The position numbers were made by a program, and so were the translations under genes. Positions 1 to 63,735 of a stretch of 64,000 bases of DNA are shown here, one piece after another (within the stretch, counting starts at the first letter, position 1; every line of letters begins with the position of its first letter). Under the pieces are notes generated by a model. That model searched no databases. It was not told the origin of the DNA and saw only the letters and a list, made by a program, of their open reading frames with translations. Origin of the DNA: Hymenobacter gelipurpurascens (GTDB lineage: Bacteria > Bacteroidota > Bacteroidia > Cytophagales > Hymenobacteraceae); assembly GCF_900187375.1 (NCBI RefSeq), contig NZ_FYEW01000002.1:310001-374000 (forward strand). The letters run 5' to 3'.

Positions 1-1805
1 AGAGAGCGAGCGGCCCCCTGTAAGGCCCGGGCCTGCACATCTCTGCCTCCGGCATTCAGGTTCCGGTTCATTTCCACCCGCACCCGTGGGCTGCGCAGCT
101 GGCGGCTGGCTACATCGGTAGAACGGCGGGCTTGCTGCCGAATGCGTTCTATCTGTACCTCGCTCAGGCCAGGGCTGGGCATGGTGAAAACGCGGGAGAA
201 GTTGTCATCGAAGTGGAAGTCGAAATCGGAGCCGTTGCTGCTCCACGTGCGGCCGTTAGGCCCCACCCGAATCACTTCAACTTCGCGCTCATTCTTCTTG
301 CCCTTCTTCGCTTTTTTGTCGGTTGATGCGCCTTCTACCCGGCGGCCATCCACGAACAACTCGGTCACGCGGCCTTTTTTATCTTTCTCGATAACCACGG
401 TGCCAGGCCGACGTGCGCCTTCCTGCACTACTACTACCTGCTTGCTGCGCTTGCGTTTTTTGTCCTTGGCGTCGTCTTGCAGGATGCTGAGCGGCTGCAT
501 TTCCTCCTCGGCCTGCTCTACCTCCGGCAGTTCGGGCACATCTGGCGCATCTGGCACCACTGCTACCTCGTCGGGCGAAGCCGGGGCAGCAGGTACCGCA
601 GGCACGGCGGGCAGTATCGGTGCTTTGCGGCTAGTATCGGGCAGGGTTTGCAGGAATGGCAAGCGACCTAGCGCGCCACCTTCATTTTCATCGGTATCTA
701 CTGGCCTAGGATCGGCCATGGCTACAGCCGAGGTCAGGAGCACCATACCACCCAGCACCAGGCAGGCGGCCATAAAGCCTTCGGTGAACGTGGGCGCGGT
801 GCGGCCTTGCACCAGCCGCTTGATGCGGCTAAGCACAGAACCATCGGGCCCCAGCGCCGACAGTGCCAGTTGGGCCGGTGTAGCGGGCACTACGCTCAGC
901 TCAGCCAGGGCGGCTAGCGCGCGGGCCACGGTCAGGGGGTTGCCCCCAACCAGAGCCGTAGCGGCATCATCGCAGCAGTTTTCGCGCTCGGTGCGCAGGC
1001 AAGCCGTGATGAACCATACGGCCGGATGGTAGAAAAACAGCGTTTCCGCTACCGATTGCACCAGGTTCATGAGATAGTCGCGGCGGGCTACGTGGGCCAG
1101 CTCGTGGGCCAGAATAGCTTCCAGATACGTTTGGCTCAGGCCCGTCACGGTACCCAGCGGCAGCAATACCACGGGCCGCAAGTGGCCTACCACCACTGGC
1201 ACGCGCACCAGCGCCGACTCCAGCAGCTCAACCGGCTGCCGCAGCCCGGCCCGGGTGGCCAGCACCGCCAAACGGGCCTGCCATTCCTCAGACAACGGCT
1301 GCACCCGGTAGCGGCGCAAACGCTGCACGTAGGCCAGTCCGCCCATCAGGCGCAGGGTCATGGCCAACAGGCCTAGCAGCCACACGGCCACCAGCATGGG
1401 CAGGTTCTGGTCGAAGTAGTTCAGCCAGGCCTGCAAACGAGAAGGCGCCGGAGCGGCTTCAGCCACTAAACCCGGCTCCGAGGCAGCTACAGTGACAGCA
1501 GAACGAATGCCCGAAGCAGTTGGCGCCACCGCTACAGCGGCGGCTTTAGCTGTCGCAACTTCGGCGGCCTGCTCTGTGCGGGCAGCTGCGTAGTAGCGCC
1601 CAAAGGTGACGGTAGCCAGCACCAGCAACGCCACCAAAGCCGCCGCCGCCGTGTTATAACGCACCACGGCTCTATGCCGACGCAGCAGCAACAGCAACCC
1701 CGCCAATGCCAGCGCTACCACCGCGCCTTGCCACAACGAGTGCACTAAAGTCCAGCCGAGGGCGCGTACCAGCGCCGGTGGCAGTAGTTGTTCGAGCCAG
1801 TTCAT
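1..1805 (-). CDS. M56 family (BlaR1/MecR1-like) membrane metallopeptidase, 3' end outside window
   Basis: The frame is open for 601 codons from an ATG at 1805 to the window edge, so the protein is partial. The start is fixed by a 4-base ATGA overlap with the stop of the upstream repressor gene. The N-terminal part has hydrophobic segments near residues 13-30, 40-60 and 125-140, and the zinc motif HELAH lies at about residues 234-238, followed by ARRDY. A further hydrophobic stretch comes near 320-335. The tail is Pro/Ala-rich and then Lys-rich and presumably periplasmic. In the BlaR1/MecR1 family the inner-membrane protease inactivates its partner repressor when a signal is sensed. No penicillin-binding domain is visible in the part seen, so the signal is unknown. 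Family assignment is secure; the role in regulation is inferred from the neighbour. Confidence 0.9.
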   Translation of the reverse strand, partial: MNWLEQLLPPALVRALGWTLVHSLWQGAVVALALAGLLLLLRRHRAVVRYNTAAAALVALLVLATVTFGRYYAAARTEQAAEVATAKAAAVAVAPTASGIRSAVTVAASEPGLVAEAAPAPSRLQAWLNYFDQNLPMLVAVWLLGLLAMTLRLMGGLAYVQRLRRYRVQPLSEEWQARLAVLATRAGLRQPVELLESALVRVPVVVGHLRPVVLLPLGTVTGLSQTYLEAILAHELAHVARRDYLMNLVQSVAETLFFYHPAVWFITACLRTERENCCDDAATALVGGNPLTVARALAALAELSVVPATPAQLALSALGPDGSVLSRIKRLVQGRTAPTFTEGFMAACLVLGGMVLLTSAVAMADPRPVDTDENEGGALGRLPFLQTLPDTSRKAPILPAVPAVPAAPASPDEVAVVPDAPDVPELPEVEQAEEEMQPLSILQDDAKDKKRKRSKQVVVVQEGARRPGTVVIEKDKKGRVTELFVDGRRVEGASTDKKAKKGKKNEREVEVIRVGPNGRTWSSNGSDFDFHFDDNFSRVFTMPSPGLSEVQIERIRQQARRSTDVASRQLRSPRVRVEMNRNLNAGGRDVQARALQGAARS

Positions 1806-2215
1806 GACGCGTCGTCGGTTGAGGTGGTGTCGTTCTTGATTTCAATGTCGTTGAGCAGACGGCGGATCTGCTGCAGCTCCTCCTGCGAGGTATTTCGGTT
1901 GCCCAGCGCCTGCATCACCAGCTTCATGGCCGAGCCGCCGAAGGCTGATTCCACGAAACGATCAAGGAGCAGGCCCTGGGTTTCCTCCTCGCGCACGGCG
2001 GCCCGATAGATGTGCGTTTTGGTGCTGTCTTCGCGCAGCACCAGCACTTTTTCCAGCATTAGCTGCAACAGCTTCAGCGTGGTGGTGTAGCCCACATCGC
2101 GCTTCTTGCTGAGCTCATCATTCACGAAGCGGACGGTGCTGGGGCCATGTTGCCAGAGCACCTGCAATATTTCCAGCTCCGATTCAGTAGGTTTGGGGGC
2201 AGGTGATTTATTCAT
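1802..2215 (-). CDS. BlaI/MecI/CopY family transcriptional repressor
   Basis: A 137-residue winged-helix protein of the penicillinase repressor family. It opens with the typical PTESELEILQVLW segment (residues 9-21), followed by the recognition helix region with YTTTLKLLQLMLEK near residues 43-56, and ends in a helical dimerisation part. Family members repress their own operon and are removed by proteolysis by the M56 protease encoded next, here overlapping by 4 bases. Three 16-base dyads lie directly upstream (2234-2307) and are the likely operators. The length is normal for the family (120-140 residues). Confidence 0.93.
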   Translation of the reverse strand: MNKSPAPKPTESELEILQVLWQHGPSTVRFVNDELSKKRDVGYTTTLKLLQLMLEKVLVLREDSTKTHIYRAAVREEETQGLLLDRFVESAFGGSAMKLVMQALGNRNTSQEELQQIRRLLNDIEIKNDTTSTDDAS

Positions 2216-2577
2216 AATTGCAGTGTTTGATACTACGAAGCAGTTCGTACATCAAACATATACGAACCATATCGTAGATGCAAGTAATATCTACGATTTA
2301 TTTCGTACAATATTACTGCCTACTGTTATACTGTTAAATATCAGCATTATAACACAAACCATCACCTTATCTGGCCCTTTCCTCACTTGCCGGTCACTCA
2401 TCACTCACTTGTGGTGCTGCTGTAGCTGGTCATGATGGTTTAAGCACCCTGGCTTGGTAGCAGTCAGTAGATATATACAACTGGGCCTCACCTGGTCAGG
2501 GCATAATTGAAGCCCAAGCGCCCTGGATTGACTGATGAGCGGAGAGGTACAGCTTGGCGGCACTTAGACAACGAAGC
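2216..2577. other. Intergenic region holding the operator; otherwise no gene seen
   Basis: This 362-base gap is AT-rich in its first 130 bases, which hold the three dyads. I see no convincing reading frame, RNA gene or terminator in the rest. The stretch to 2577 contains no TGGCCTA motif. Confidence 0.5.
2234..2307 (-). promoter_or_regulatory. Triple dyad operator for the BlaI-like repressor
   Basis: Three 16-base dyads of the form TACGA-N6-TCGTA lie at 2234-2249, 2261-2276 and 2292-2307, with centres 27 and 31 bases apart. The first is TACGAAGCAGTTCGTA. They begin 19 bases upstream of the repressor ATG, where an autoregulatory operator is expected. Known BlaI/MecI operators are also short dyads read by a winged-helix dimer, but with a TACA/TGTA core. 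The dyads are seen directly; the binding protein is inferred. Confidence 0.7.
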
Positions 2578-3297
2578 CTATTTGCGCTTGCGGAAATACA
2601 CATCACCGCTCACGGACTCCAGCCGAACCGCGGGGCCGCCGTTACCGCCTAGCGTACCGCGTAACTGGTAGCCCACAATAGGATTGTCTTTGCGGTTTAC
2701 GAAGGCAATGTCCTGATCGGTGTACACTTCGCCGCTGATGGTTTTGAAGGCCAGGTCGGCGCTCTTCTGGGCGGGCCAGTTCACATCCACAAAGCCACTG
2801 ATGGATTTCACATCAAGTGGGGCATTCAGCCCGTTCACCTCAATATTGCCGCTGATGGTGTTCACGCGCACTGCTACGCCAGCGGGTACGGCCACGTCTA
2901 CTTCAACTTTCAGGCAAATGCCGCCGCCGCTCGACTGCCCGTTGCGCCAGTTGCCGCCCCAGCGAGTAGTACCCTCGCCATCGGGGCAATTGGTAACCTG
3001 GCTGGTTTGTACCAGCTTTTCATCCAGCACGGAGGTAATGGTGAGGCCATCAGCGGCTTTGCTGGAAGTAAGCGTCACGGCCTCGTTCAGTTGCCCGCCA
3101 TTGACGGTGACGGTAGCGCGCAGCACCATCTCGGAGCCGCTGGCCGGATGAATTTTGATAACCGTAGCGTGTTTCAGCTCCAGGTTTAAGCGTTGGCCAG
3201 AAGTTAAAGGGGCCTTCTGTTCGAGTACTTTTTGGGCGTAAGCTCCCAGGCTGCTCAGCCCTAGCAGGACTGACAGCAACAATAAGAAACGAAACAT
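2578..3297 (-). CDS. Exported DUF4097-type beta-repeat protein (copy 1)
   Basis: A 239-residue protein with a clear signal peptide (MFRFLLLLSVLLGLSSLGAYA, cleavage before Q22). From residue 140 on it has the alternating short beta-strand repeats of the DUF4097 family, seen as NTISGNIEVNG, KSISGFVDVNW, KTISGEVYTDQ and ESVSGDVYFRK. These are predicted to form a right-handed beta-helix-like solenoid. It is the last gene of an operon that starts with an ECF sigma factor. The next gene upstream is a paralogue with the same C-terminal ending (SGDVYxRK). In Bacteroidota such proteins commonly follow sigma/anti-sigma pairs; their function is not established. Confidence 0.85.
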   Translation of the reverse strand: MFRFLLLLSVLLGLSSLGAYAQKVLEQKAPLTSGQRLNLELKHATVIKIHPASGSEMVLRATVTVNGGQLNEAVTLTSSKAADGLTITSVLDEKLVQTSQVTNCPDGEGTTRWGGNWRNGQSSGGGICLKVEVDVAVPAGVAVRVNTISGNIEVNGLNAPLDVKSISGFVDVNWPAQKSADLAFKTISGEVYTDQDIAFVNRKDNPIVGYQLRGTLGGNGGPAVRLESVSGDVYFRKRK

Positions 3298-3345
3298 GGG
3301 ATGGGTAGTAGAGAAGTGAAAGAATAGATTCTGGCTACTGTTTGG

Positions 3346-4125
3346 CTATTTGGCTTTGCGCACGTACACATCACCGCTCACATTTTTGAGCGAGATGGAG
3401 GTGCCGCCACCGTTGATGGCTCCATTGAGCGTCTGCCCTCCAATCTGGGTCAGGCCACTGCTGTTGGCTGATTTGGGCATAGACATATCGAAATCAGTAT
3501 ACACCTCTCCCGATATAGTACGCATCATGAGCGAGGCCTTGGTGGCCGTAGGCAGGGCCACATCAATAGCGCCGCTAATGTTGGTGATGGCGCTGGGGCC
3601 GGTGCCCAGTGAGGTGTAGCGCACCGTAATATCGCCGCTGGTGCTGCTGGCTACCACGGGGCCGACTACGTTCAGCATCTTGGCATCGGAGCTTTTCATC
3701 ATCACTTCCAGCTTACCCTGCAGGTTTTGCAGCACCACATTACCCCCGCCCCACTGCATTTCGCGGTACACCACATCGGCGGAGCGCGGCACCCGAATGG
3801 TGTAGTGCCCATCCTGGCGCGAGGCCTTCACGATGCGTACCGTGTTAGCCTCTTTGGTCACGGCTAGGCCTATGCGGGTGTTATCTACAGCGGAGTTGTA
3901 CACGGGGCGTAGACCCTCGGCGCGCTTCGGAGCCTCTTCGGCATTGTCGCCTTTGATGATTAGCTCGTCGCCATCGTAACCTTCCACGGTCACTTCGCTG
4001 CCGTGCTGCATTTCGATAACCACTTTGCGGTCTTTGCCGCTCAGCTTGGTGCGGTATTCCTGGGCCTGGGCGGCGGAGCCCGCCAGCAGCAGGCTGATGA
4101 TCAGAAGAAATCTATGCTTTTTCAT
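3346..4125 (-). CDS. Exported DUF4097-type beta-repeat protein (copy 2)
   Basis: A 259-residue protein with a signal peptide (MKKHRFLLIISLLLAGSAAQA) and DUF4097-like strands in the second half (SSTSGDITVRY, TNISGAIDVAL, RTISGEVYTDF, KNVSGDVYVRK). It is clearly a paralogue of the gene 48 bases downstream and probably arose by tandem duplication. The N-terminal 130 residues differ between the two copies. It lies 94 bases after the anti-sigma factor gene on the same strand and is likely cotranscribed with it. Location is predicted to be periplasm or outer surface. Confidence 0.85.
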   Translation of the reverse strand: MKKHRFLLIISLLLAGSAAQAQEYRTKLSGKDRKVVIEMQHGSEVTVEGYDGDELIIKGDNAEEAPKRAEGLRPVYNSAVDNTRIGLAVTKEANTVRIVKASRQDGHYTIRVPRSADVVYREMQWGGGNVVLQNLQGKLEVMMKSSDAKMLNVVGPVVASSTSGDITVRYTSLGTGPSAITNISGAIDVALPTATKASLMMRTISGEVYTDFDMSMPKSANSSGLTQIGGQTLNGAINGGGTSISLKNVSGDVYVRKAK

Positions 4126-4219
4126 AGGAGAGAGTCAGTTGCAGATAGGTGAGTCAGATCGTGAGGAGCCGCGGACTCCAAGGGTCTGACAACTACCCTA
4201 TCAGTAAAAAAAGAGAAGG

Positions 4220-5083
4220 TTAAATCAGGATGCTAATGCCCTGGCGAGCCTGGTCGCGCACGGCGGGCAATGCGTCGGGGCGCTGAGAGAGGCGTTTGAG
4301 CTGGGGCACGGCCTTCTTGTCGCGCAGCTTCACGAGCAGCTCAATGAGGGTAATCTGCACGTTGGGGTCAGTTTGCACGGGTAGGGCCTGTATCAGCGCC
4401 GGGGCTACCAACGAATCGGCCCGCAGGCGGTAGAGGGCATCGGCGGCCGCTAGGCGCACGTTGGGGTTAGGGTCGGAGTTGAGCGTGTTAATAAGCACCA
4501 GCACCGTGGGGTCGCCGGGGCGCGAATTGCCGGAAGCATCACTTACCAGCTGAATGCGGTGGCTGGCCGTGGCTGGCTGCTGAGTAGCGGCTGTAAGCCG
4601 GGCGGCTAGCTGCTGCGCATCGGCGGCCGGCGTAGTCGTGGCTATTTCCGGAGTGGTCGGTTGGCGCAGCAGCAGCCCGAACACCGTGCCGACCGCCAGT
4701 AGCGCTATACTGGCCGCAATCCGCAGCCACATAACTGTATTTGATGCTGCTGAAGCACTAGCAACTGGGTGCAGGGGCACTACTTTCGCCTCAAGCGACT
4801 GTGCCTGACTAGTTGCGGACACTAGCGCCTTTTCCGCCGCTAGCATGGCCTGAAAATCGTCGCGCAGGCCCATAGGAGGCATTACGGGCGGTAGGTCGTC
4901 GAGGGCGGTGAGTAAGCTGCTGTATTGAGCCGCCTTCTGCTGGCATGCCGGGCACTGCGCCAGATGGGCCGCTACCCGAGCCCGCTCTTGGGGTGGTAAG
5001 GTACGGGCGGCATAGTCCATCAGCAACAGCTCCAGGTCGGAGCAGTCGGGCGGGATGGGCAGATGGGTTTCGTTATGTAACAT
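4220..5083 (-). CDS. Anti-sigma factor with zinc-finger, one membrane segment and HEAT repeats
   Basis: A 287-residue protein. Residues 15-60 carry an anti-sigma zinc-finger domain with the HxxxCxxC signature (HLAQCPAC). A single membrane segment follows at about residues 122-145 (MWLRIAASIALLAVGTVFGL). The C-terminal 90 residues read as HEAT-type helical repeats (NVRLAAADALYRLR, NVQITLIELLVKLR) and should lie in the periplasm. It starts 18 bases after the sigma factor gene, which makes it the partner that holds that sigma factor inactive. A HEAT-repeat sensor domain is less common than the usual unstructured one and suggests sensing by protein-protein contact; that is inference. Confidence 0.85.
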   Translation of the reverse strand: MLHNETHLPIPPDCSDLELLLMDYAARTLPPQERARVAAHLAQCPACQQKAAQYSSLLTALDDLPPVMPPMGLRDDFQAMLAAEKALVSATSQAQSLEAKVVPLHPVASASAASNTVMWLRIAASIALLAVGTVFGLLLRQPTTPEIATTTPAADAQQLAARLTAATQQPATASHRIQLVSDASGNSRPGDPTVLVLINTLNSDPNPNVRLAAADALYRLRADSLVAPALIQALPVQTDPNVQITLIELLVKLRDKKAVPQLKRLSQRPDALPAVRDQARQGISILI

Positions 5084-5101
5084 GACTAAGCAGTCGGAAT
5101 A

Positions 5102-5638
5102 TCAGCTGAAGTAAATTTTGCGCAGGGCCTCCAGGGCCCGGTGCGCTTTCACGCGGGCCGCTCCTTCTGAGCAACCCAGCATCTCCCCTATCTCGGCGTA
5201 GTCGAAGCCCTGAAAGCGGTGCAGCACCAGAATCTCGCGTTGCGCCGAGGGTAACAGGCCTAGAGCCTCCTGCACGTCCTGGCCATCGTAGGTGGCCGCC
5301 ACACCAGCCATGGCCGCTCGGCGCAGAGTAGGTGTATGTTCCGCCACTTCCAGGTCGCCGGCCGGTACGTGGTGTTTCTTCCAATGGTCGGCGTACACGT
5401 TGCGGGCCAGCTGGTAAATCCACGCCTTGAACGGATGGCTGGACTGGTAGCTGGTGCGGTATTTTAGGATGCGCAGGAACACGTTCTGCACCAAATCCTG
5501 CGCCGTATCCCGGTCATTGGTCAACCGTAACAGGAAGCCGAACAGCAACCCCTGATAGCGCTCAAACAGCGTGGATAGCTGGTCGAGGTCGTTGTCACGG
5601 ACTTGCTCCATCAGGGTTTCGTCGCTGGGGCTTTGCAC
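5102..5638 (-). CDS. ECF-type RNA polymerase sigma factor
   Basis: A 178-residue sigma-70 family protein with only regions 2 and 4. Region 2 spans about residues 20-95 (RDTAQDLVQNVFLRIL, FKAWIYQLARN). Region 4 spans about 120-175 (LPSAQREILVLHRFQGFDYAEIGEMLGCS). It heads an operon with the anti-sigma factor and two DUF4097 proteins, so it probably directs transcription of that operon and of envelope genes elsewhere. The start is a GTG at 5638; an ATG at 5611 is an alternative that would shorten the protein by 9 residues. Confidence 0.92.
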   Translation of the reverse strand: MQSPSDETLMEQVRDNDLDQLSTLFERYQGLLFGFLLRLTNDRDTAQDLVQNVFLRILKYRTSYQSSHPFKAWIYQLARNVYADHWKKHHVPAGDLEVAEHTPTLRRAAMAGVAATYDGQDVQEALGLLPSAQREILVLHRFQGFDYAEIGEMLGCSEGAARVKAHRALEALRKIYFS

Positions 5639-5740
5639 GGGTAGAAGGAGCTTTATGCGGGGGAGTTGTCAGGAGTACCGACTGATTTGCCGTTCGTTAC
5701 AGAGGTAGGAAAATATTTTTCAACTCCCTTGAAAACAGCG

Positions 5741-5771
5741 CGGCTCCGTAGTGCCATGCACCACGGAGCCG
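5741..5771 (-). terminator. Stem-loop downstream of folB
   Basis: An 11-base stem, CGGCTCCGTAG paired with CCACGGAGCCG with one mismatch, around a 9-base loop. It lies 30 bases past the folB stop and upstream of the sigma factor gene. The T-run after it on the minus strand is short (GCTGTTTTC), so it is a plausible but weak intrinsic terminator. Confidence 0.5.
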
Positions 5772-5800
5772 TTACTACTTTCTGCGTTTTATGTTTGCTG

Positions 5801-6260: not shown

Positions 6261-6310
6261 GCTGGCAATAAAGAACAAGAATCGCTTTATGTTTCCTGCT
6301 CCATGGGTTT

Positions 6311-19054: not shown

Positions 19055-19083
19055 GGATTTCGTTAGTTGGGGCAGCGACCCGC

Positions 19084-19091
19084 TACCTTTG
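19084..19091 (+). promoter_or_regulatory. -7 promoter element of the LptD-like gene
   Basis: TACCTTTG fits TAnnTTTG, 51 bases before the chosen GTG start. A TTG at 19067-19069 is only 14 bases upstream, shorter than usual. The element lies inside the longer possible reading frames of both divergent genes, which argues for later starts in both. Confidence 0.5.
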
Positions 19092-19141
19092 CAAACCGCC
19101 ACAAAATAAACGATAAAAACTACGTGGCCCCGCTAGCGCCT

Positions 19142-22021
19142 GTGTTTCATTTGATTTTATATGCGCCCGGCCGGTGGCCCCGGCTACTTACGCTCTTGCT
19201 GCCGCTGCTGCTGAGCTTGCTAGGTGCGCGCACTGGCCTAGCCCAGCAACGTCCCCGCACTACCTCGGTGCCCACCGATGTGCGCCCCGCCCCGCGTGTA
19301 CTCAACCCTCCCAAACCTAATGCTCCGGTCCGTACGGATACCGTAGGCCTGGTCAGCGGCTCTCCCGATTCGCTGAACGTGGCCGCCGGGGGCCGCAAAG
19401 GTGCCGTAGAAACCACCGTCAAGTACAAGGCCAAGGACTCGATCCGGTTCGAGGTGCAGAATAAAAAGGCCATCCTCTACGACAAGGCCAACGTGGATTA
19501 CGGCGACATGAACATCCAGTCGGCCCGGATTACGGTGGACTATAACACCAACGTGGTGACGGCCGAGGGCCGCAAGGATTCTACGGGCAAATTAGTAGAC
19601 CGACCCGTGTTCAAGGACGGCGGCAGCACCTACCAGGCCAACCGCATCGACTACAATACTAAAAGCAAGCGCGGCCGCATCACGGATGTGGTCACGAACA
19701 TGGGGGAAGGCTACATTCACGCCGAAACCATTAAGAAAAACGACCGGAACGAGCTGTTCGGGGTGCGAGGCCGCTATACTACCTGCAACCTCGAAGATCC
19801 GCACTTCTATATCAACGCCTCCAAGATGAAGGTGATTCCGGGCGAGAAAGTCGTGACCGGACCGTTCAACCTCGTTATCGGGGATATTCCGACGCCGCTA
19901 GGCTTTCTGTTTGGGTATTTCCCGACGCCCAAAACCAACCAACGCGCTTCCGGCCTGATTATTCCCACCTTCGGCCAGGCCGCTGACCGCGGCTTCTTTC
20001 TGCGCAACGGCGGCTACTACTGGGCCGCCAACGACCACATTGGCGTGCGCCTCACTGGTGACATCTACTCCGGCAATGCGGACGTGTTCGGCGGCTGGCG
20101 CGGCACGGCTGAGGTGCAGTACATCACGCGCTATCGGTATAGTGGCCTACTATCGTTTAACTACAGCTCGCAGCCCACTACCCAAATTCTGAGCTCTACC
20201 GACGTCAATACCAACCCGCAATACAACGTGCCACGCTCTTCCAAAAACTTTGCGCTAGCCTGGAACCACACTCCCGTGGCGCGGCCCAACGGCGGCCGTT
20301 TTTCGGCCAACGTGAACGTGAGCAGCAGCAACTACTACCGCCAGAACTCTTACAATCAGCGCCTCTACCTGCAGCCGGCCTTCTCGTCTACTATTTCCTA
20401 CTCGAAGCAGATCCGCAACTCGCCCATCAACTACGCGCTGCAGCTAAGCCAGACGCAGAACACGCAGTCGGGTACGATGAACTTCACCCTGCCCGACGTG
20501 ACGGTAGGTGTAGCTCGGCAGTACCTCTATGACTTAGTAGGCCTGGAGCCTCAGGGCAAGTTCTATGAGCAGCTGGCAGTGGCCTACACGTTCGTAGGCC
20601 AGAACCGCATCTCCAACTCCATCCCGCAAACCTTGCTCAATAGCGGAGCTATTCCGGTGCTGGGCGGCTCGCGCGAAACCGCCGTTCTGCCCGTTAAGCT
20701 GGACAATCTTGCCAAACTGCTGCGCAACTCCCAGACGGGTGTCCAGCATCAGTTCCAGATTACGCTGGGCAACTACACGTTGCTGAAGCACTTCAACCTG
20801 AATCCTAGCATCAGCTACAACGAGGTGTGGTACTTCAAGAGCCTCGACTACAGCTATAATTCTACGGCCCGTGCAGTACGCATTGATACGGTAGCCGGCT
20901 TTAATCGTCTCAATAGCTATTCTGGTGGCCTGAACCTGAGCACGAACTTCTACGGCACTATTAACCGGAAAGGCACGCGCAAAATCCAGGCGCTACGCCA
21001 TAAGGTTACGCCTAGCCTGAGCTGGCAATATTCGCCGGACAACAGAGCTAGTAACCGTGCCTTTGCTATAACAGAATTAGGCGACCTCCGCGACCCTGCT
21101 ACCGGCCGCGTGTTCCTGAATGACCCAAGTTTAAAAGGCCAATCTTATCAGAGTGCTCAACTGCTGCCACGCTATAACGGCTTCTTATTTGGAGTACCAA
21201 GCACTACAAAAGTCAGTGCCATTAACTTCTCGCTGCAGAACTCGGTAGAGATGAAGGTGCGCAACAACGAGGATACTACCGGCACAACGCCCTTCAACAA
21301 AGTCAGCCTCATTGATGGCCTAGACTTTAACATCGGTTACAACTTCGCGGATTCAGTCTTTAATCTCAGCCCGTTGGGCATTGTGTTCCGCACCCAGGTG
21401 GCACGCAAGCTCAACTTATTGGTGAATAGCAACCTAGAGTTTTATCAGCAGGACTCCACTCGTCGCCTCATCAATAAGTTTCTGTGGCAGCAGGACAAGA
21501 AGAAGCTGGCCCGTCTGGCCTCGGCCAGCCTGACGATGAGCTATCAGTTCAACCCCAGCACCGGCGACCGTAAATCTGCCATTAAGCGGCCCGTGGCACC
21601 TGCCAACGACCCCTCGCTGGGCTCTCCTACTCGCCTCGACCCCTATGAGGACTACGTGGACTTCGAGATTCCGTGGGACCTGAGCACCAACCTCACGGCA
21701 ACCTATGCCAACCAGGGGCCCCTACCCGCCCGGTTTAATCGGCCCCGTAACTCGCCCTACACGGCCGTCAGCCTCAACCTGAACGGCTCCGTGAAGCTGA
21801 CGGAGACGTTGCGCTTCGGCTTCAGTACCAACTACGATTTCGTGAACAAGAATCCAGCCTTCACCTCCCTGGATATATTCAAGGACTTGCACTGCTGGCA
21901 GATCAATGGCAACTGGCGCCCCTTCGGTCCCACACGTGGCTACTTCGTGACCATTGCGGCCAAATCTGCGCTATTGCAGGATCTGAAGCTCAGCCGCAAC
22001 CGCACTTTCCTGAACTACTAG
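19142..22021 (+). CDS. LptD-like LPS assembly outer-membrane protein
   Basis: About 959 residues. A signal peptide (LLTLLLPLLLSLLGARTGLAQ) is followed by an OstA/LptD N-terminal beta-jellyroll (RFEVQNKKAILYDKANVDYGDMNI, ARITVDYNTNVVTAEG) and then a large beta-barrel with many aromatic-ended strands up to the end. It matches the Bacteroidota putative LptD group (YTTCNLEDPHFYI, PFNLVIGDIPTPLGFLFGYFP). LptD inserts lipopolysaccharide into the outer leaflet together with LptE. The frame is open to a TTG at 19067, but the -7 element at 19084 rules this out. I use the GTG at 19142; a GTG at 19124 is also possible. It is divergent from the amidase gene. Confidence 0.9.
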   Translation: MFHLILYAPGRWPRLLTLLLPLLLSLLGARTGLAQQRPRTTSVPTDVRPAPRVLNPPKPNAPVRTDTVGLVSGSPDSLNVAAGGRKGAVETTVKYKAKDSIRFEVQNKKAILYDKANVDYGDMNIQSARITVDYNTNVVTAEGRKDSTGKLVDRPVFKDGGSTYQANRIDYNTKSKRGRITDVVTNMGEGYIHAETIKKNDRNELFGVRGRYTTCNLEDPHFYINASKMKVIPGEKVVTGPFNLVIGDIPTPLGFLFGYFPTPKTNQRASGLIIPTFGQAADRGFFLRNGGYYWAANDHIGVRLTGDIYSGNADVFGGWRGTAEVQYITRYRYSGLLSFNYSSQPTTQILSSTDVNTNPQYNVPRSSKNFALAWNHTPVARPNGGRFSANVNVSSSNYYRQNSYNQRLYLQPAFSSTISYSKQIRNSPINYALQLSQTQNTQSGTMNFTLPDVTVGVARQYLYDLVGLEPQGKFYEQLAVAYTFVGQNRISNSIPQTLLNSGAIPVLGGSRETAVLPVKLDNLAKLLRNSQTGVQHQFQITLGNYTLLKHFNLNPSISYNEVWYFKSLDYSYNSTARAVRIDTVAGFNRLNSYSGGLNLSTNFYGTINRKGTRKIQALRHKVTPSLSWQYSPDNRASNRAFAITELGDLRDPATGRVFLNDPSLKGQSYQSAQLLPRYNGFLFGVPSTTKVSAINFSLQNSVEMKVRNNEDTTGTTPFNKVSLIDGLDFNIGYNFADSVFNLSPLGIVFRTQVARKLNLLVNSNLEFYQQDSTRRLINKFLWQQDKKKLARLASASLTMSYQFNPSTGDRKSAIKRPVAPANDPSLGSPTRLDPYEDYVDFEIPWDLSTNLTATYANQGPLPARFNRPRNSPYTAVSLNLNGSVKLTETLRFGFSTNYDFVNKNPAFTSLDIFKDLHCWQINGNWRPFGPTRGYFVTIAAKSALLQDLKLSRNRTFLNY

Positions 22022-33208: not shown

Positions 33209-33616
33209 ATGCAAGTTACCATCTGCCGAAAGGAGCACTTTAATGCGGCTCACCGTTTGCACAACCCCGCCTGGAGCGATGAGCAGAACCAGCGCGTGTT
33301 TGGCAAATGCAATAACCCTCATTATCACGGACATAACTACGAGTTGATTGTGCGCCTCACCGGCCCGATTGATCCGGATACGGGCTATGTCTATGATATG
33401 AAGCGGCTCAGCGACCTGATGAAACGTGAGATTCTGGATACCTTTGACCACCGCAATCTTAATCTGGACACAGAAGACTTTCGGAACTTGAACCCCACGG
33501 CGGAGAATATTGCCGTGGTCATCTGGAATCGGCTGCGGCCCCACTTGGCAGCACACCTAGGCCTATCGGTCACGCTGTATGAGACCGAACGCAATTTTGT
33601 AGAATACCATGGATAA
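33209..33616 (+). CDS. 6-pyruvoyl-tetrahydropterin synthase / QueD family protein
   Basis: A 135-residue T-fold enzyme. Zinc ligands are seen in EHFNAAHRLH (first His) and HYHGHNYEL (HxH), with the catalytic Cys in FGKCNNP and the C-terminal Glu in YETERNFVEY. Depending on partner it makes 6-carboxy-tetrahydropterin for queuosine/7-deazaguanine (QueD) or 6-pyruvoyl-tetrahydropterin. It overlaps folE by 8 bases, which supplies its substrate dihydroneopterin triphosphate. The other queuosine genes are not in the window. The ATG at 33209 is chosen over an upstream start because the family begins here. Confidence 0.9.
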   Translation: MQVTICRKEHFNAAHRLHNPAWSDEQNQRVFGKCNNPHYHGHNYELIVRLTGPIDPDTGYVYDMKRLSDLMKREILDTFDHRNLNLDTEDFRNLNPTAENIAVVIWNRLRPHLAAHLGLSVTLYETERNFVEYHG

Positions 33617-34289
33617 CCTAGTGCCCGCGGCCTCTGCTGCGGAAGGTGCAACTCCGGCCACCGATGGACATCTGGCGCCGTCGCTCCGCACCCCCCTCCG
33701 CCCCGACGCCTTCGTCCTCAGCGATGAAGAAAAGATTGACACGATTGCCGGGCATTTCCGGGAAATCATGGACGTGCTGGGGCTCGACCTCACCGACGAC
33801 AGCCTGAGCGGCACGCCCAAGCGGGTGGCTAAAATGTATGTGCAGGAGTGGTTCCGGGGCCTCAACCCCGAGCACCGTCCCGACGTGAAGCTATTCGAGA
33901 ACCGCTACCAGTACGAAAACATGCTGGTGGAGCGCGACATTACGCTGTTCTCGTGCTGTGAGCACCACTTTGTGCCCATCATCGGTAAAGCACACGTGGC
34001 GTACTTGCCCGGTGAGCATGTGGTAGGCCTCTCCAAACTCAACCGGGTAGTGCAATACTACGCGCGGCGCCCCCAGGTGCAGGAACGCCTTACCCGACAG
34101 ATTGCGGAGGAGTTGAAACAAACGTTGCACACGGATAATGTGGCCGTCCTCATCGAAGCCGACCACCTGTGCGTGATGAGCCGCGGCGTGAATGACACCA
34201 GCAGCGGCACCCTCACGGCCGAATACGGCGGCGTGTTTAAGGATGATAGTGGCCTACGCCAGGAATTTCTGCGTCTGATCGGCAAATAG
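33609..34289 (+). CDS. folE: GTP cyclohydrolase I
   Basis: A 226-residue type I GTP cyclohydrolase, which forms 7,8-dihydroneopterin triphosphate from GTP. The core starts near residue 45 (EEKIDTIAGHFREIMDVLGLD). Zinc and catalytic residues lie in SCCEHHFVPIIGKAHVAYLP and ADHLCVMSRGV, with the substrate loop GLSKLNRVVQYYARRPQVQE. The first 40 residues are variable and partly disordered. It is translationally coupled to the PTPS/QueD-like gene (8-base overlap). The product also feeds folate synthesis, where FolB (5801-6166) acts. Confidence 0.96.
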   Translation: MDNLVPAASAAEGATPATDGHLAPSLRTPLRPDAFVLSDEEKIDTIAGHFREIMDVLGLDLTDDSLSGTPKRVAKMYVQEWFRGLNPEHRPDVKLFENRYQYENMLVERDITLFSCCEHHFVPIIGKAHVAYLPGEHVVGLSKLNRVVQYYARRPQVQERLTRQIAEELKQTLHTDNVAVLIEADHLCVMSRGVNDTSSGTLTAEYGGVFKDDSGLRQEFLRLIGK

Positions 34290-34511
34290 CCCTCCCGCAG
34301 TATACGGCTGGCTGCGTGTGCCGGGGCGCCGGTTGCCCTTAGGTGCCTGCGCCAGTGGCCTACGCGCTTTTAGGTGCTAGGCCACTGCTTGGCTGTGCAT
34401 AATTATTCTGTTGCGAGTTGTCAGTTGCCTGCTAGCTTGCACCCTCGATCCTACTTTTTGCTGCGGCGCTGCTTTACCAGCGCCCAGCACTACTCCTGGC
34501 AACTCAAGAAA

Positions 34512-35426
34512 ATGTCCCGCAAAGTTCTTATTACCGGTGGTACCGGCCTGATTGGCACTCGGCTCGCCGAAATGCTCATTGATGCCGGCTACGAAGTGGC
34601 TTTGCTTAGCCGCCAGCCCGGTACCTCGCGCTACCGTGGTTTCCGCTGGGATCCGCAGGCCGGTTCCATTGATGAAGCCGCCGTCACGTACGCCGACTAC
34701 ATTATTAACTTGGCCGGCAGCAGCGTATCGGATGGTAAATGGACGAATGAGCGCAAGCGCGATATCCTTTCCAGCCGCTTAGCCGGGACAGAGCTGATTG
34801 CCCGCGAGCTGGCCAAAGGCAACCACCATGTGCGTGCGTTCATCTCGGCATCAGCCATTGGTATTTATGGCGACCAGGATGACAAGGTGGTGAACGAGCA
34901 AAGCCCACCGGCTGCCAACGATTTCCTGGCCGATGTCTGTCAGAAGTGGGAGGCTGCGGCCCAGAGCGTCGCCCAGAACGATATCCGAACTGCCATTTTC
35001 CGTATCGGCATTGTGCTGAGTCCTGATGGGGGTGCGCTGGTACCCTTAGCTCGCGTGGTGAAGATGATGGCCGGCGCGCCACTGGGTACCGGTCGGCAGT
35101 ATATGTCCTGGATTCATCTCGATGACCTGTGCCGCCTCCTGATTCAGGCCCTGGAAGAGCCCAAGTGGGAAGGCACATACAACGCCGTATCGCCCAATCC
35201 CGTCACCAACAAAGACTTTACCGAAACTCTGGCTGGCGTGCTGCATCGCCCATTGGTGCTACCCAAAGTTCCGGAGTTTGGCCTGAAGCTCATGATGGGC
35301 GAGATGAGCGAAATTGTGCTGGCCTCGCAACGGGTCAGCGCTGAGAAGGTACTGAAGCAGGGCTTTGAATTTGAATACCCTACGCTGAAAGTAGCCCTGG
35401 AATCCTTCTACGGCGAAGAGGTCTAG
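34512..35426 (+). CDS. TIGR01777-family NAD-dependent epimerase/dehydratase-like protein
   Basis: A 304-residue extended short-chain dehydrogenase with the Rossmann motif VLITGGTGLIGTRLAEML at the start, INLAGSSV, ISASAIGIYGDQ (catalytic Tyr region) and RIGIVLSPDGGAL. These are hallmarks of the YfcH/TIGR01777 group, whose substrate is unknown. The frame is open to 34374, but the ATG at 34512 places the Rossmann motif at the N-terminus as in relatives. The TAG stop is inside a CTAGGCCAC motif copy and a strong terminator follows. Confidence 0.92.
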   Translation: MSRKVLITGGTGLIGTRLAEMLIDAGYEVALLSRQPGTSRYRGFRWDPQAGSIDEAAVTYADYIINLAGSSVSDGKWTNERKRDILSSRLAGTELIARELAKGNHHVRAFISASAIGIYGDQDDKVVNEQSPPAANDFLADVCQKWEAAAQSVAQNDIRTAIFRIGIVLSPDGGALVPLARVVKMMAGAPLGTGRQYMSWIHLDDLCRLLIQALEEPKWEGTYNAVSPNPVTNKDFTETLAGVLHRPLVLPKVPEFGLKLMMGEMSEIVLASQRVSAEKVLKQGFEFEYPTLKVALESFYGEEV

Positions 35427-58987: not shown

Positions 58988-59317
58988 GCTTGTCTTAATA
59001 ACGCTAGGCCAGTAAAAAGCCCGTTTCTCTATAGAGAAACGGGCTTTTTACTGGCCTAGCGTTATATTGAGATATGTCAGGGTTCTCGAATTGACTATGG
59101 TATTCCTAACTAAATAGTACGCCGATTTGCTGTACTTACACAATATGATATAAGTAATCATATATCCATTTGAATTCCACTTATGATACTATCTCCCAAT
59201 AATGGGAATGAAAATTAGCAACCTTCAATACTATGTTCTACTTTCGTGATAGTTAGATTCTTTAATACAAATTTTCTGGCTGAACCTCACCTAGTACTCG
59301 TCTAACACACACATATC
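58988..59317. other. Intergenic region with palindrome; AT-rich second half
   Basis: After the palindrome (to 59065) about 250 bases are AT-rich with no motif copy and no reading frame. They run into the AT-rich 5' half of the next gene without an obvious boundary. Confidence 0.55.
58998..59065. terminator. Perfect 68-base palindrome, bidirectional terminator
   Basis: Arms of 34 bases (58998-59031 and 59032-59065) pair without mismatch or loop. The arm reads ATAACGCTAGGCCAGTAAAA then AGCCCGTTTCTCTA, so the TAGGCCA heptamer lies in both arms and A/T-runs lie on both strands. It follows the T9SS gene by 11 bases. Confidence 0.95.
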
Positions 59318-60595
59318 ATGAAGCAACGTTTCCTCTCTCTTTTCCCTTTGGCTTTAATTTTAAGCTTGTGCCCTTTTGCGAGCTGGGCGCAATACTCTAT
59401 CAAACAGAACTTTGAAGCAACAGGCTCTACCTTAGGATATACCGCAACTATTGCACCTACAGGCAACCCCGGTATTCCTGGCCAAACATATACTGGTAAT
59501 GCGTCCAATATTAGTGGATCTAACGCTCTTCCATCTAATCCTACTGCTACTAGCCCCTTTCCTAACAACTTTGTAAGTTCTTCAACGGGATATGGGGTTT
59601 ATAATCCAAATGGCCAAGGTCTACAAAGACCTGTTATACAACTAGATTTTTCACCTGTAAATATTATTAGTTCAGCAGGCACCACGATTAGCTTTCGTTT
59701 GGCTGCATATTCTGATGGCAATGCTGGCGGAATAACGAGTACTGGAAGAGCTATTTTGAGTTTAGCGACCAATCTTAACAATAATACTTTCACAGACTAC
59801 ATTACTGTAACAGGTCCTGCTTCCAAAGGTGCCTACTGGGATTTCGGTGCTACAGGAATCGCTCAGGCAACTTATCCTAATGTGACAGTAATACCTGCAC
59901 CAGCTAGTGATAATTTAGCTAGTAGTGCATATTTGGGAACAGGCACTGGGATTAGCACTGTCCAATTAACATTACCTGCCGGCATAACATCGGCTAAACT
60001 CCGTATAACTCTTGAGGCAAGTGCAAAATCGGTTCTGCTGATAGATGATGTAGTTATTAGTGGTACGACTCCACTTCCCGTAACCCTCACTAGCTTCACG
60101 GCCTCACGTCAGTCGAGCAATGTGTATGTAAAGTGGGCTACGGCAACGGAGAAGAACAATGCTTACTTTGAGGTACAGCGCAGCAACGATGGCAAGGCCT
60201 TCACGACGGTTGGCAAAGTAACCGGCAACGGTACTACTGCTACGGGTGCTTCATATAACTTCACGGACCGCAATCCTCTGGCTGCCACTTCGTACTACCG
60301 CCTGCGCCAGGTAGATAACGATGCTACGGAGACTTACTCATCAGTAGTAACCATTTCGGGTGCTGATAAGATTGAGGCTTCTTTTTACCCCAACCCGTCC
60401 AATAGCCTCGTTACTCTGCCTGCTGTTAGCGGCTTGGTGAAGTATCGCGTGTACACTGCTACTGGCCAGAACGTCGCAACGGGCGAAGCGCAGGGCGGCT
60501 CGGAAGTAAGCCTGCAGCAAGTACCTGCTGGCATCTATTTCCTGGAGCTCATCACTGCTGGTAAACACAATGTGCAGCGTTTTGTAAAGCAATAA
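59318..60595 (+). CDS. Exported T9SS cargo protein with an AT-rich N-terminal half
   Basis: A 425-residue protein with a signal peptide (FLSLFPLALILSLCPFASWA-Q). Residues 20-250 form a beta-rich domain of unknown function (SIKQNFEATGSTLGYTATI, YWDFGATGIA). The DNA of this part (to about 60070) is clearly AT-richer than its surroundings, while residues 250-425 resemble the C-terminus of the preceding T9SS protein (TSFTASRQSSNVYVKWATA, FTDRNPLAATSYYRLRQVD, SFYPNPSN, GIYFLELI, HNVQRFVKQ) and return to native composition. The gene looks like a mosaic of an acquired cargo domain and a native sorting domain. Confidence 0.88.
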   Translation: MKQRFLSLFPLALILSLCPFASWAQYSIKQNFEATGSTLGYTATIAPTGNPGIPGQTYTGNASNISGSNALPSNPTATSPFPNNFVSSSTGYGVYNPNGQGLQRPVIQLDFSPVNIISSAGTTISFRLAAYSDGNAGGITSTGRAILSLATNLNNNTFTDYITVTGPASKGAYWDFGATGIAQATYPNVTVIPAPASDNLASSAYLGTGTGISTVQLTLPAGITSAKLRITLEASAKSVLLIDDVVISGTTPLPVTLTSFTASRQSSNVYVKWATATEKNNAYFEVQRSNDGKAFTTVGKVTGNGTTATGASYNFTDRNPLAATSYYRLRQVDNDATETYSSVVTISGADKIEASFYPNPSNSLVTLPAVSGLVKYRVYTATGQNVATGEAQGGSEVSLQQVPAGIYFLELITAGKHNVQRFVKQ

Positions 60596-60612
60596 TTTGC
60601 TCTACAAGTCAT

Positions 60613-60656
60613 AAGAAAGAGGCCCGTTCTGCAACTGCAGAATGGGCCTCTTTCTT
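60613..60656 (+). terminator. Terminator of the second T9SS gene
   Basis: AAGAAAGAGGCCC pairs perfectly with GGGCCTCTTTCTT through a GTTCTGCA/TGCAGAAT inner stem, with a T-rich 3' end, 18 bases after the stop. Confidence 0.9.
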
Positions 60657-60796
60657 TATTTAGCTAGTTGTTCGGAGGCAGCGTTACCTGAGGTGATACT
60701 ATAACACACCGAATCATCTTGCTTCCATCAGGCAGTATAACCACCGATATAGCAAGCGATATACTTCAATGTGCTGGGCATGCAGGAAACTCAGTA

Positions 60797-60861
60797 TTTT
60801 TCTAGGCCAGTAAAAAGCCCGTCCGGAATTACCGAACGGGCTTTTTACTGGCCTAGAAAAA
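60797..60861. terminator. Palindromic terminator sharing its core with the one at 58998
   Basis: Arms of 26 bases (60797-60822 and 60836-60861) pair perfectly around a 13-base loop. The arm contains CTAGGCCAGTAAAAAGCCCG, which is also present in the palindrome at 58998-59065. It stops rho (minus strand) and gives a second stop for the T9SS gene. Confidence 0.92.
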
Positions 60862-60879
60862 CCGTGTAGGCCAAATGGC

Positions 60880-63096
60880 CTAGCCATTCATGGCCATCAG
60901 GAATTCTTCATTATCCTTGGTGCCTTTCATGCGGTCCTTGAGGAACTCCATGGCTTCGGAGGCCGTCATGTCCGACATGAACTTGCGGAGCACCCAGATG
61001 CGGTTAAGCTCGTCCTTGCTCATGAGCAGGTCTTCGCGACGCGTACCGGATGCCGGAACATCAATAGCCGGGAAGATGCGCTTGTTGGCCAGCTTGCGGT
61101 CCAGCTGCAGTTCCATGTTGCCGGTACCCTTGAACTCCTCAAAGATTACCTCGTCCATCTTCGAGCCGGTCTCGATGAGCGCCGTGGCAATAATGGTCAG
61201 CGAGCCACCATCTTCTACGTTACGAGCGGCACCGAAGAAGCGCTTGGGCTTGTGCAGCGCGTTGGCATCGACACCACCCGAGAGGATTTTGCCGGATGCA
61301 GGCTGCACCGTGTTATAGGCCCGGGCCAGACGCGTAATAGAGTCGAGCAGGATTACGACATCATGACCACACTCCACAAGGCGCTTGGCCTTTTCCATGG
61401 CAATGGTGGCAATCTTCACGTGGCGGTCAGCCGTTTCGTCGAAGGTGGAGCTGAGCACTTCGGCTTTCACCGAGCGGGCCATGTCCGTAACTTCTTCCGG
61501 GCGTTCATCGATGAGCAGAATCATCAGGTACACCTCAGGGTGGTTCTCGGAAATAGCGTTGGCAATTTCCTGCAGCAGCACCGTCTTACCCGTTTTGGGC
61601 TGGGCCACGATCAGGCCCCGCTGGCCTTTGCCAATAGGAGCGAACAGATCCAGAATACGCGTGCTGTACTGCCCCGATTTTGTCGTGAGCTTCAGGCGCT
61701 CCTCGGCAAACAGCGGCGTGAGGTTAGCAAAGGGAATACGGTCGCGGGCCTCTTCTACTGAGCGACCGTTGATGCCCTCCACTCCTACCAGTGCGAAGTA
61801 TTTTTCGCCTTCGCGAGGCGGCCGGATGGTGCACTTCACCGTGTCGCCGGCTTTGAGACCGAACTGCTTCACCTGCTGCGGCGAAACATAAATATCATCG
61901 GGCGAAGCCAAGTAATTGTAGAAGGGGCTGCGTAGGAAACCATAACCACCGTCGGGCATCATTTCCAGCGTACCATCTCCCGGAATCGTGATTTCAAACT
62001 CTGGGCGAGCAGGACGCTGCTCTACATTCTGGCGAAGCTCACCAGACTGACGCGGCTCGCCAGCCACGCGGGGCTCACCCTGGCGCTGCTCCAGGCGTTC
62101 CGTAAGCCGCTGCTGGCGCTGCAGTTCACGAGCGGCATACCGCTCTTCACGCCGCTGCTCGCGGCCTTCGCGGCCATCGGGGCGCACCACGGCCTCGCGC
62201 TGGCCACCATCGCGCAGGGCGCGAGGGGCATCGTTGCGAAACTCCCGGGGCTGGTCCGTACGACCATCCGGGCGCGGCTCCCGGCCGTTCTGGCCGAACT
62301 CCTGACGACCTTCGCGGGGCTCGCGCCCGTCGTTGCGGCCTTCGCGGCTGAAACGCTGCTCCCGACCATCGCGCAACGGCGCCGGCGCCGTTGGATCAAT
62401 GGGGCGCAGCTCGCGGGGTAAACTCTGCGGTACAGCAACTGGAGCAACTGCCCCTTCCTGGCCTACGGGTGCAACTGGCACAGTTTCTACGGCTGGAGCT
62501 GCACCTTCTATTGCAGCATCAGCCTGCAGGGTTTCAGCGCCATTAGCAGCGGGCATAGGCCGCCCGTTGCGGTCGGTGCGCTGGCGGCGCTCCGGGCGCT
62601 GATATACTTTAATTGGGCGGTCAGAGCCGTTTTCGCTTGGAGCAGGCTCAGCCACCGCCACGGCAGGAGCTTCTACAAGCTCGGCCGCTACGGCGGGCTG
62701 CTCGGCTACCACTCGTGCCACCGGCTCAGGTGCGAGGGCAATAGATGCTTCCACAACTGGTGCGGCTACAACCTCGGGAGCTACAGCGGCTGGTTTAGCC
62801 ACTTTAGGAGCCGCAGCACGGGCCGGCCGTGGGGCCCGCGCAGGGCGGGCAGCCGGAGCAGCAGCTTCTGCCACTTCAGCTACGGGGGCAATATCCTCAG
62901 TGGGCGCGCCAGACTTACCAGCAGCGGGTTTCACTTTTTTGGGAAGCTTGTCCTGCGGTGTAATAGCTTGTTGGTCCAGGATCTTGTAAATCAGATCCTG
63001 CTTACTGAGTTTTTTGAAGTTACCGACGTTCAGTTGTTCTGCAATTTCCTTTAGATCGGACAGCAGACGGTCCTTCAACTCTTCGATAGTGTACAT
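60880..63096 (-). CDS. rho: Transcription termination factor Rho with a long inserted domain
   Basis: A 738-residue Rho. Residues 1-45 form the N-terminal Rho domain ([24 protein letters not shown]). About residues 50-345 are an inserted, disordered, Ala/Pro/Val- then Arg/Gly/Glu-rich region (repeated [17 protein letters not shown]). The RNA-binding cold-shock domain follows ([27 protein letters not shown]-like), then the ATPase with Walker [11 protein letters not shown], Walker [14 protein letters not shown] and the Q/R loops. It ends [20 protein letters not shown]. The ATG at 63096 is chosen over an ORF start 33 bases upstream. The TAG stop falls between two inverted TGGCCTA copies. Confidence 0.96.
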
Positions 63097-63272
63097 ATAA
63101 GAAGCTGGGCGAAAAATCAGGCGGGGCACAAAGCCAAAATGGGGGAGGCAGCACGGGCCAATCCGGACACAAAGCCAACCGCAGAGGGTTGCGCAATCAA
63201 CAGGATTCTAGAGGAGAATACGGAGGGTGGTAGCGGGAGGCGCTGAAAATAGAGCGGACCGTACGCGAGAGT

Positions 63273-63299
63273 AAAAACTAACTGCGGGCCCGGTTTCAA
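63273..63299 (-). promoter_or_regulatory. Possible rho promoter
   Basis: On the minus strand a TTG (63299-63297) and TAGTTTTT (63280-63273) are 16 bases apart, one base short of the usual range and with T instead of G at the last position. It would give a leader of about 170 bases before the ATG, as expected for an autoregulated rho gene. Confidence 0.35.
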
Positions 63300-63735
63300 C
63301 CGCCGGCTTGCTAACGCAATGTTAGGGTAATACGGGGGAACTGCCAAATCGGATACGGGAATTTTCTCCCCAGATTTTATCCGGTTTGTCCACTGTACGA
63401 TTTCCAGTAATTGCAGCCGCAATTTTCCGGGCAAACAACGCTAAACAACAGATTACCAGCCGTACAATTTATGGCGTAGGCCACTACTCCTGTGTTGCTA
63501 ACGCGTTGGTTTCCGATTTAAGTTTCAACCATCCAGGAAAACGAAAGCCTCGGCCAGCATGGTACAAACTGTATTTGTTGGTGATGCCCATCGAGGCACA
63601 AAAGAACACTAGCAGTTGGTCAGAACGGGCTCGTGCTACTGCTGTTCCAGCTCGCTTTCTACTGGCCTAGGCCTGTTAACGACGCGCAGGTTTCGCTTAA
63701 TCTGATTAATCTGCAACATCTGCGATTCATCTTCC

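Follow-up and report, generated by a model that had tools for sequence, protein, structure and literature searches.

TGGCCTA, a short word iterated throughout the genome of Hymenobacter gelipurpurascens, is preserved in place within one clade and has counterparts elsewhere in the genus

The heptamer TGGCCTA (reverse complement TAGGCCA) is iterated throughout the genome of Hymenobacter gelipurpurascens. Its repetition had been noticed in a preliminary description of a 64-kb stretch of this genome (contig NZ_FYEW01000002.1, positions 310,001 to 374,000; hereafter the window), and the present analysis confirms the observation. The word is enriched genome-wide in a single clade of four among 120 Hymenobacter genomes, exceeds the expectations of codon usage and of low-order Markov models, and occupies positions that are preserved within the clade; a second group of species carries a different word, ACCTAGG, at a like scale. 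We give a probability of about 0.4 to the reading of TGGCCTA as one local dialect of a recognition word acting at the DNA level and kept dense at permissive positions; a putative sequence-specific protein would read it, and it would label self DNA.

Within the window TGGCCTA is found 63 times on the forward and 39 times on the reverse strand, or 102 copies against 8.4 expected from base composition, in agreement with the roughly 100 and 10 estimated initially. For the core GGCCTA/TAGGCC the initial estimates were about 150 copies and 40 expected; the expectation (38.9) and the iteration itself stand, and the actual count is higher, at 168 (97 and 71 on the two strands). Enrichment confined to the window is ruled out by the count over the whole 5.06-Mb genome, where 3,871 and 3,767 copies make 7,638, or about 1.5 per kb. 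The reversed word, taken as a control, occurs 261 and 299 times (560 in total), so that TGGCCTA attains the hundreds to thousands of copies that characterize DNA uptake sequences. In a 404-kb sample comprising the window and 17 further stretches of the same genome (18 sequences), 611 copies were observed, against 53, 66, 90, 101, 215 and 406 expected under Markov models of orders 0 to 5; the maximal-order comparison in the window gives 102 against 66.8. High-order models absorb the signal because all sub-words of the heptamer are also enriched, GGCCTA, CTAGGC and AGGCCA among them.

The ability of high-order models to explain much of the count is what one would expect if the word were a by-product of codon usage or of a context-dependent bias in mutation or repair and had no function. 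We regard this origin as very improbable. Shuffling of synonymous codons within the 316 open reading frames (ORFs) of the 404-kb sample, with gene models picked by length, yields 80.5 copies (standard deviation 5.8) against the 384 coding copies observed, and these copies occupy five of the six reading frames. The word is found in coding and intergenic DNA alike, as initially described, its density being 1.13 copies per kb within ORFs and 3.59 elsewhere, an approximately threefold difference. Codon shuffling and the higher intergenic density together rule out a codon-usage artefact. The Markov and codon-shuffle comparisons had been proposed in the preliminary description as checks of its own claim; neither of the two outcomes it had set against itself, a frequency close to these expectations or a restriction to the window, was seen.

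Whole-genome counts separate four of the 120 Hymenobacter genomes, the focal genome (G000), G119 (7,232 copies), G024 (7,212) and G111 (4,871), from the remaining 116, which hold 432 to 1,361 copies. Among 390 genomes drawn evenly from the order, the focal genome included, the highest count apart from its own is 1,278. On a tree built from Rho alone (103 genomes; ten of the 113 surveyed below, among them G054, G077 and G018, were omitted for a short or missing rho) the four rich genomes form a clade with support of 0.83, and the word-poor G043 is their sister (support 0.98). Over an alignment of about 37 kb of the window, the rich four are 80-85% identical to one another, and G043 is 74-75% identical to all four.

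The positions of TGGCCTA are conserved within this clade. The alignment contains 105 sites that carry the word in at least one rich genome: 19 are present in all four, 24 in three, 20 in two and 42 in one. From the focal genome to G119, 37 of 56 sites are intact, against 27% of other 7-mers with four G/C (Fisher p 2e-9), and from G119 to G024, 40 of 55 against 38% (p 2e-7); these p values are approximate, since the background 7-mers overlap. When all ordered pairs of the rich four are taken together, so that each site enters several times, 300 of 417 coding sites are kept (background 33%), as are 126 of 229 intergenic ones (25%). Per-base identity reaches 0.83-0.93 across the word and 0.88 at the base that follows, as opposed to 0.72-0.78 in the remaining flanks. 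The heptamer ranks 11th in conservation among the 552 7-mers with at least 120 comparisons, ten other 7-mers standing higher. TGGCCTA sites are thus intact about twice as often as comparable 7-mers between rich species and are therefore maintained, not merely made by mutation.

The protection ends at the first word-poor relative. Against G043, 21 of 175 sites are kept (18% background), none of 48 intergenic sites is, and the peak of per-base identity is missing. Protection thus goes with use of the word and is lacking in the sister species. Where a site is missing in one rich genome and held by at least two others, the difference amounts to a single base in 27 of 49 ungapped cases; G043 differs at such sites by two or three bases in 25 of 46. 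This comparison with sister species, also suggested beforehand, weakens the idea of a mutational by-product: a bias in creation alone does not make existing sites twice as durable, but the argument would not touch a form of repair that protects the word as well as creating it.

The heptamer is the core of a longer, asymmetric form. Among the 611 copies of the 404-kb sample, C or G (S) directly precedes the word in 93% and directly follows it in 95%, and A occupies position -2 in 60%. The resulting form ASTGGCCTAS, recognized in the preliminary description, is displayed by 57 of the 102 window copies and occurs 341 times in 404 kb of the focal genome (84.4 per 100 kb), against twice in 320 kb of 14 word-poor relatives (0.62 per 100 kb). 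At the enriched GGCC sites one flank is TA; the other is AST or, more rarely, a second TA or a triplet that begins and ends with T. Per 100 kb, sites combining AST with TA number 86.4 in rich genomes (544 kb) and 0.6 in poor ones, and those with TA on both flanks 15.6 and 0.3; the symmetric ASTGGCCAST shows no enrichment (0.4 per 100 kb in rich and 0.9 in poor genomes). Because AST with TA is the favoured arrangement, the main form is asymmetric, and TGGCCTA itself is no palindrome. Palindromic doublets had been pointed out as well, and doublets GGCCTAGGCC are present at nine places in the window.

The asymmetry bears on a mechanism of the kind associated with the cyanobacterial HIP1 (GCGATCGC), in which the word would be marked by a solitary DNA methyltransferase and would owe both its origin and its protection to methyl-directed mismatch repair or some comparable bias of repair. 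In the part of the HIP1 literature consulted (PMC4390886), HIP1 and the alternate HIPs are generally paired with a methyltransferase for the word. The Hymenobacter words resemble them in density, in being rich in G+C and often palindromic, and in their replacement by other words in some scattered lineages (PMC4390886, in part); they differ in that TGGCCTA is not palindromic and that no methyltransferase family tested is shared by the rich genomes. PF00145 is absent from the focal genome and G111, PF01555 from G111, G119 and G024, PF07669 from G119, and PF02384 from G111, with a match of just 22.5 bits in the focal genome; none of these four families is thus present in all four rich genomes, while other families (e.g. 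PF02086) and other modifications were not searched. This speaks against a HIP1-type cause within the families tested and weakens the methylation site among the functions considered at the outset. Wider variants might invoke other methyltransferase families, enzymes of different families with one specificity, or other DNA modifications. On balance, we find a HIP1-type origin unlikely.

Copies are spread over both strands (329 forward and 282 reverse in the 404-kb sample), and the choice of strand does not correlate with GC skew, our stand-in for the direction of replication (r = -0.11 over the 18 sequences). The word thus shares with uptake sequences its lower frequency in coding DNA and the lack of a general strand bias. 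The spacing of neighbours is close to Poisson (ratio of standard deviation to mean 1.04 over 581 gaps), with an excess of gaps of 12-20 bases (18 against 7.7 expected); the regular spacing of a saturating repair signal was not observed. Inverted pairs with starts less than 30 bases apart number 35 among the 597 copies in the 364 kb outside contig C4 and comprise 18 overlapping doublets TGGCCTAGGCCA and 17 other close pairs, located both in and between ORFs. These properties bear out the HIP1-like density and Neisseria-like layout proposed in the preliminary description. The two orientations relative to the reading frame are unequally represented (253 against 122).

Density peaks immediately downstream of stop codons, at 11.6 per kb over the first 25 bases, and is low just upstream of starts (2.4). 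Despite this peak, transcription termination is rejected as the main role because close inverted pairs are few and copies follow genes in both orientations (73 intergenic copies in the orientation of the preceding gene, 91 in the opposite one).

Chi sites of other bacteria are short, species-specific and over-represented, and their orientation follows replication. A label of this kind would halt a helicase-nuclease degrading linear DNA, and so mark self DNA inside the cell and not at its surface. TGGCCTA is similarly short, species-specific and over-represented and, being present in both orientations at 1.5 copies per kb, would shield the majority of fragments. Its strand choice nonetheless shows no correlation with GC skew, in contrast to the oriented Chi sites, and palindromic dialects are unsuited to an oriented signal; we hold a Chi-like role to be distinctly improbable, less so than a functionless by-product.

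Thousands of sites on both strands, near-random spacing, an intergenic excess, positions kept in place and words that are partly dyad-like would also suit a protein of the nucleoid, or one that organises the chromosome, with a DNA specificity drifting from species to species. Each change of specificity would, however, require the rewriting of thousands of sites, the recurrence of the same words in separate clades would go unexplained, and neither a strand nor a GC-skew pattern is seen. We consider such a protein about as unlikely as a HIP1-type mechanism; the chief rivals of a self-DNA label are a nucleoid protein and a mechanism coupled to repair.

A part of the focal genome is poor in the word. 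Two 20-kb stretches (L041 and L042) of the 285-kb contig C4 contain 14 copies in 40 kb, against 597 in the 364 kb elsewhere, and no other dialect word reaches a comparable count on them, GCTAGCC being highest with 11. Scanned proteins (10 of the 27 ORFs of at least 250 amino acids) include those of a kdp system for potassium transport and, next to an Eco57I-like methylase, a restriction-type helicase. These stretches are possibly a plasmid or an acquired region. Their poverty in TGGCCTA counts in favour of a self-DNA label because it is expected of more recently acquired DNA.

Other Hymenobacter species carry other words. We surveyed 113 of the 120 genomes (all except G078, G080, G094, G095, G097, G108 and G115). 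For 108 of them the sample was a single stretch of 7.5-20 kb surrounding rho, for four it was 60 kb and for the focal genome 404 kb; the expectation used in scoring words was that of an order-2 Markov model multiplied by the genus median. Strong words were found in 27 of the 113: TGGCCTA (4 genomes), GGGCCCC (6), ACCTAGG/ACCTAGC (5), CCCTAGG (1), CCTACCC (3), CTACCCC (5) and GCTAGCC (3); weaker words such as AGCTCAA and CACTACC are left out of this tally. TGGCCTA and ACCTAGG alone were counted on whole genomes, and the other five words are known from the samples only, mostly of 20 kb or less. For ACCTAGG the whole-genome counts clearly bore out what the survey had predicted: it amounts to 8,746 copies in G013, 6,251 in G019, 6,341 in G105, 6,326 in G070 and 6,321 in G086, against 23-666 in the other 115 genomes. 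Related species thus carry variant words, as is seen with uptake sequences (of the 120 genomes, four are rich in TGGCCTA and five in ACCTAGG). The ACCTAGG genomes fall into two Rho clades, G013/G019/G105 (support 1.0) and G070/G086 (0.98), whose common ancestor is the root; the CTACCCC genomes form no clade on this tree, nor do those with GCTAGCC. Six of the seven words have CTA in common, GGGCCCC being without it. The longer dialect forms, ACCTAGGT and ACCTAGCT (which may be read as ASCTAGST), GCCCTAGGGC, GGGCTAGCCC, GGGGTAGG and GGGGCCCC, mostly consist of G/C runs flanking a central TA.

Sites of several of these words are likewise kept above background. ACCTAGG sites are kept in 30 of 45 cases between G070 and G086 (background 0.39) and in 16 of 27 between G019 and G105 (0.40), while none of 14 and none of 15 are kept against two relatives lacking the word. 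CCTACCC sites are kept in 40 of 60 cases between G002 and G017 (0.36) and in 36 of 54 between G017 and G055 (0.44), and CTACCCC sites in 22 of 39 between G069 and G035 (0.34) and in 30 of 42 between G035 and G081 (0.52).

Among the four functions that the preliminary description had listed without preferring any, the dialects strengthen the uptake or recombination signal, and the nucleoid-protein site remains. We favour a biased acquisition of self DNA because it explains the accumulation at permissive sites, maintenance with no essential role for each site, clade-specific words and fast switching. A pure creation bias fails on durability and a codon effect on intergenic density; the readings left over call for a reader protein. 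Cells would preferentially take up, or recombine in, DNA bearing the word, and alleles with the word would replace alleles without it by molecular drive. Upon a change or replacement of the recogniser, the old word would decay by single substitutions and a new one would accumulate elsewhere. Molecular drive has been proposed for the uptake sequences of Neisseriaceae and Pasteurellaceae. More tentatively, the genus might possess a self-recognition system of its own, independent in origin from those of Neisseriaceae and Pasteurellaceae, with at least seven words, a fast turnover, a repeated return to CTAG- or CTAC-centred words in separate clades, and a reader distinct both from the known methyltransferases and from type IV pilins; this combination of properties is doubtful when taken as a whole.

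A number of observations weigh against the self-DNA label. Several dialects are partly palindromic (ACCTAGGT, GCCCTAGGGC, GGGCTAGCCC, GGGGCCCC) and therefore suggest an enzyme or a dimeric protein rather than a pilin. Some words are not clearly kept in place: GCTAGCC (28 of 66 sites against 0.50), CTACCCC in G029/G109 (10 of 26 against 0.44) and GGGCCCC, which is hardly kept (50 of 97 against 0.46, 76 of 108 against 0.60 and 60 of 101 against 0.62). One dialect word does not generally replace another at the same site: 17 comparisons, from which G070/G054, with words sharing a core, was left out, give 11 overlaps against about 8.7 expected, and three single comparisons stand out (3 against 0.4, 3 against 0.9 and 2 against 0.2). 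TGGCCTA shows no bias towards gene ends, unlike the signals of Pasteurellaceae (quintiles, p = 0.35). The inner-membrane DNA channel ComEC was found in 45 of 45 genomes searched; it is not discriminating, because it is equally present in genomes without a strong word, and allows but does not favour a self-DNA label. The type IV pilus marker PilM gave weak matches in the same number of genomes (45 of 45), covering only about profile positions 158-236 of 340, which we read as an FtsA-like ATPase; the PilM search of 45 genomes thus gave no sign of a pilus of the neisserial-receptor kind, other pilus genes not having been searched.

Comparison with known systems yields both likenesses and differences. 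In the parts consulted of PMC3630211, the DNA uptake sequence (DUS) dialects of Neisseriaceae are variants of one word of 10-12 bases with a shared CTG, and their effect on uptake is proven. The Hymenobacter words likewise present thousands of copies of a short word and a different word in related species; they differ in being 7-10 bases long, in including several palindromes and GGGCCCC, which lacks the CTA of the other six, and in being known from sequence alone. With the uptake signal sequences of Pasteurellaceae, to the extent that the portion of PMC2346458 at hand describes them, TGGCCTA shares the lower frequency in genes, the commoner orientation in reading frames, the genome-wide spread and the inverted pairs, and differs from them in showing no bias towards gene ends. 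The Hymenobacter words may work like the DUS and HIP systems, a likeness of pattern, with membership established in neither. No earlier report of the Hymenobacter words was found in the literature searched for Hymenobacter and Bacteroidetes, which excludes preprints and most subscription journals. The passages seen of three retrieved papers concern other matters: a LexA study uses the sought words in other senses (PMC8565304), GGCCTA is part of a primer in a plant study (PMC13034057), and a report on TAACTGA tandem repeats does not mention Hymenobacter in those passages (PMC4679880).

The individual features of the window are listed in Table 1.

Table 1. Copies, doublets, pairs and clusters of TGGCCTA in the window (positions are those of the window)
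Feature	Position	Strand	Remarks
Dispersed TGGCCTA copies (102)	702..63669	63 +, 39 -	First start 702, last start 63,663
First ASTGGCCTAS copy of the window	700..709	+	57 such copies in the window
Palindromic doublet TGGCCTAGGCCA, two overlapping inverted copies	6200..6211		Copies 6200(+), 6205(-)
Palindromic doublet TGGCCTAGGCCA	6942..6953		Copies 6942(+), 6947(-)
Palindromic doublet TGGCCTAGGCCA	22025..22036		Copies 22025(+), 22030(-)
Inverted pair TGGCCTA...TAGGCCA	20580..20601		Starts 15 bases apart; within LptD-like ORF 19067-22021 (Pfam)
Inverted pair, ten-base arms CAGTGGCCTA...TAGGCCACTG	34356..34384		After ORF 33609-34289 (+); second arm overlaps predicted start of ORF 34374-35426 (+)
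Four-copy cluster	60803..60882		Copies 60803(-), 60849(+), 60867(-), 60876(+); lies in convergent gap between ORF 59318-60595 (+) and rho ORF 60880-63129 (-, Pfam); last copy overlaps rho end by three bases

Several further repeats were considered as dialects and dropped. The candidate of G117 (L068, about 570-736) is a local tandem array of the seven-base unit TAAGACC. GGGGGGC in G085 and G063 (L099, L093; 18-19 copies per 20 kb) belongs to CTGGGGGGC followed by T runs, which looks like the arm of a standard terminator hairpin, and GGGGGCA in G061 and G060 (L156, L159; 14-15 copies) is followed by AAAT. CGTTTAG in Rufibacter immobilis (L025, 101-20039) has 16 copies over 20.6 kb; 12 of these form pairs at a distance of 31 bases, GCGTTTAGGGGCT often surrounds the word, and it is more like an intergenic repeat family. 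A separate observation, not among the dropped candidates, concerns Pontibacter sp. E15-1 (L011), where GGGTATA (10 copies) and GGTATAC (11) are dispersed in 15 kb and possibly represent another iterated word outside Hymenobacter.

A further departure from chance concerns the tetramer GATC, which is nearly absent from 39 of the 113 sampled Hymenobacter genomes, with 13 sites against about 2,617 expected (26 against 5,234 when both strands are counted); examples are L077 (G070, 0 of 74), L078 (G086), L079 (G054), L081 (G008) and L135 (G071). It falls below 0.35 of expectation in 99 of the 113 samples. The control word GGATCCA has 0-11 copies per strand in the whole genomes of 37 of the 39, the exceptions being G112 and G113 (24-37). 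The absence of GATC is separate from the dialects, because GATC-free genomes occur both with and without a strong word. It reveals unusually strong forces at the word level in Hymenobacter.

HIP1 and uptake sequences are old puzzles, as the acquisition, upkeep and change of genome words are hard to observe. A single genus with two words counted on whole genomes, five more known from samples, and close word-poor sisters makes it possible to place gain, maintenance and loss in time on a tree, and comparing genomes with the same word in different clades offers a way to seek its reader gene. If TGGCCTA and its counterparts do label self DNA, the word would govern which DNA these bacteria exchange.

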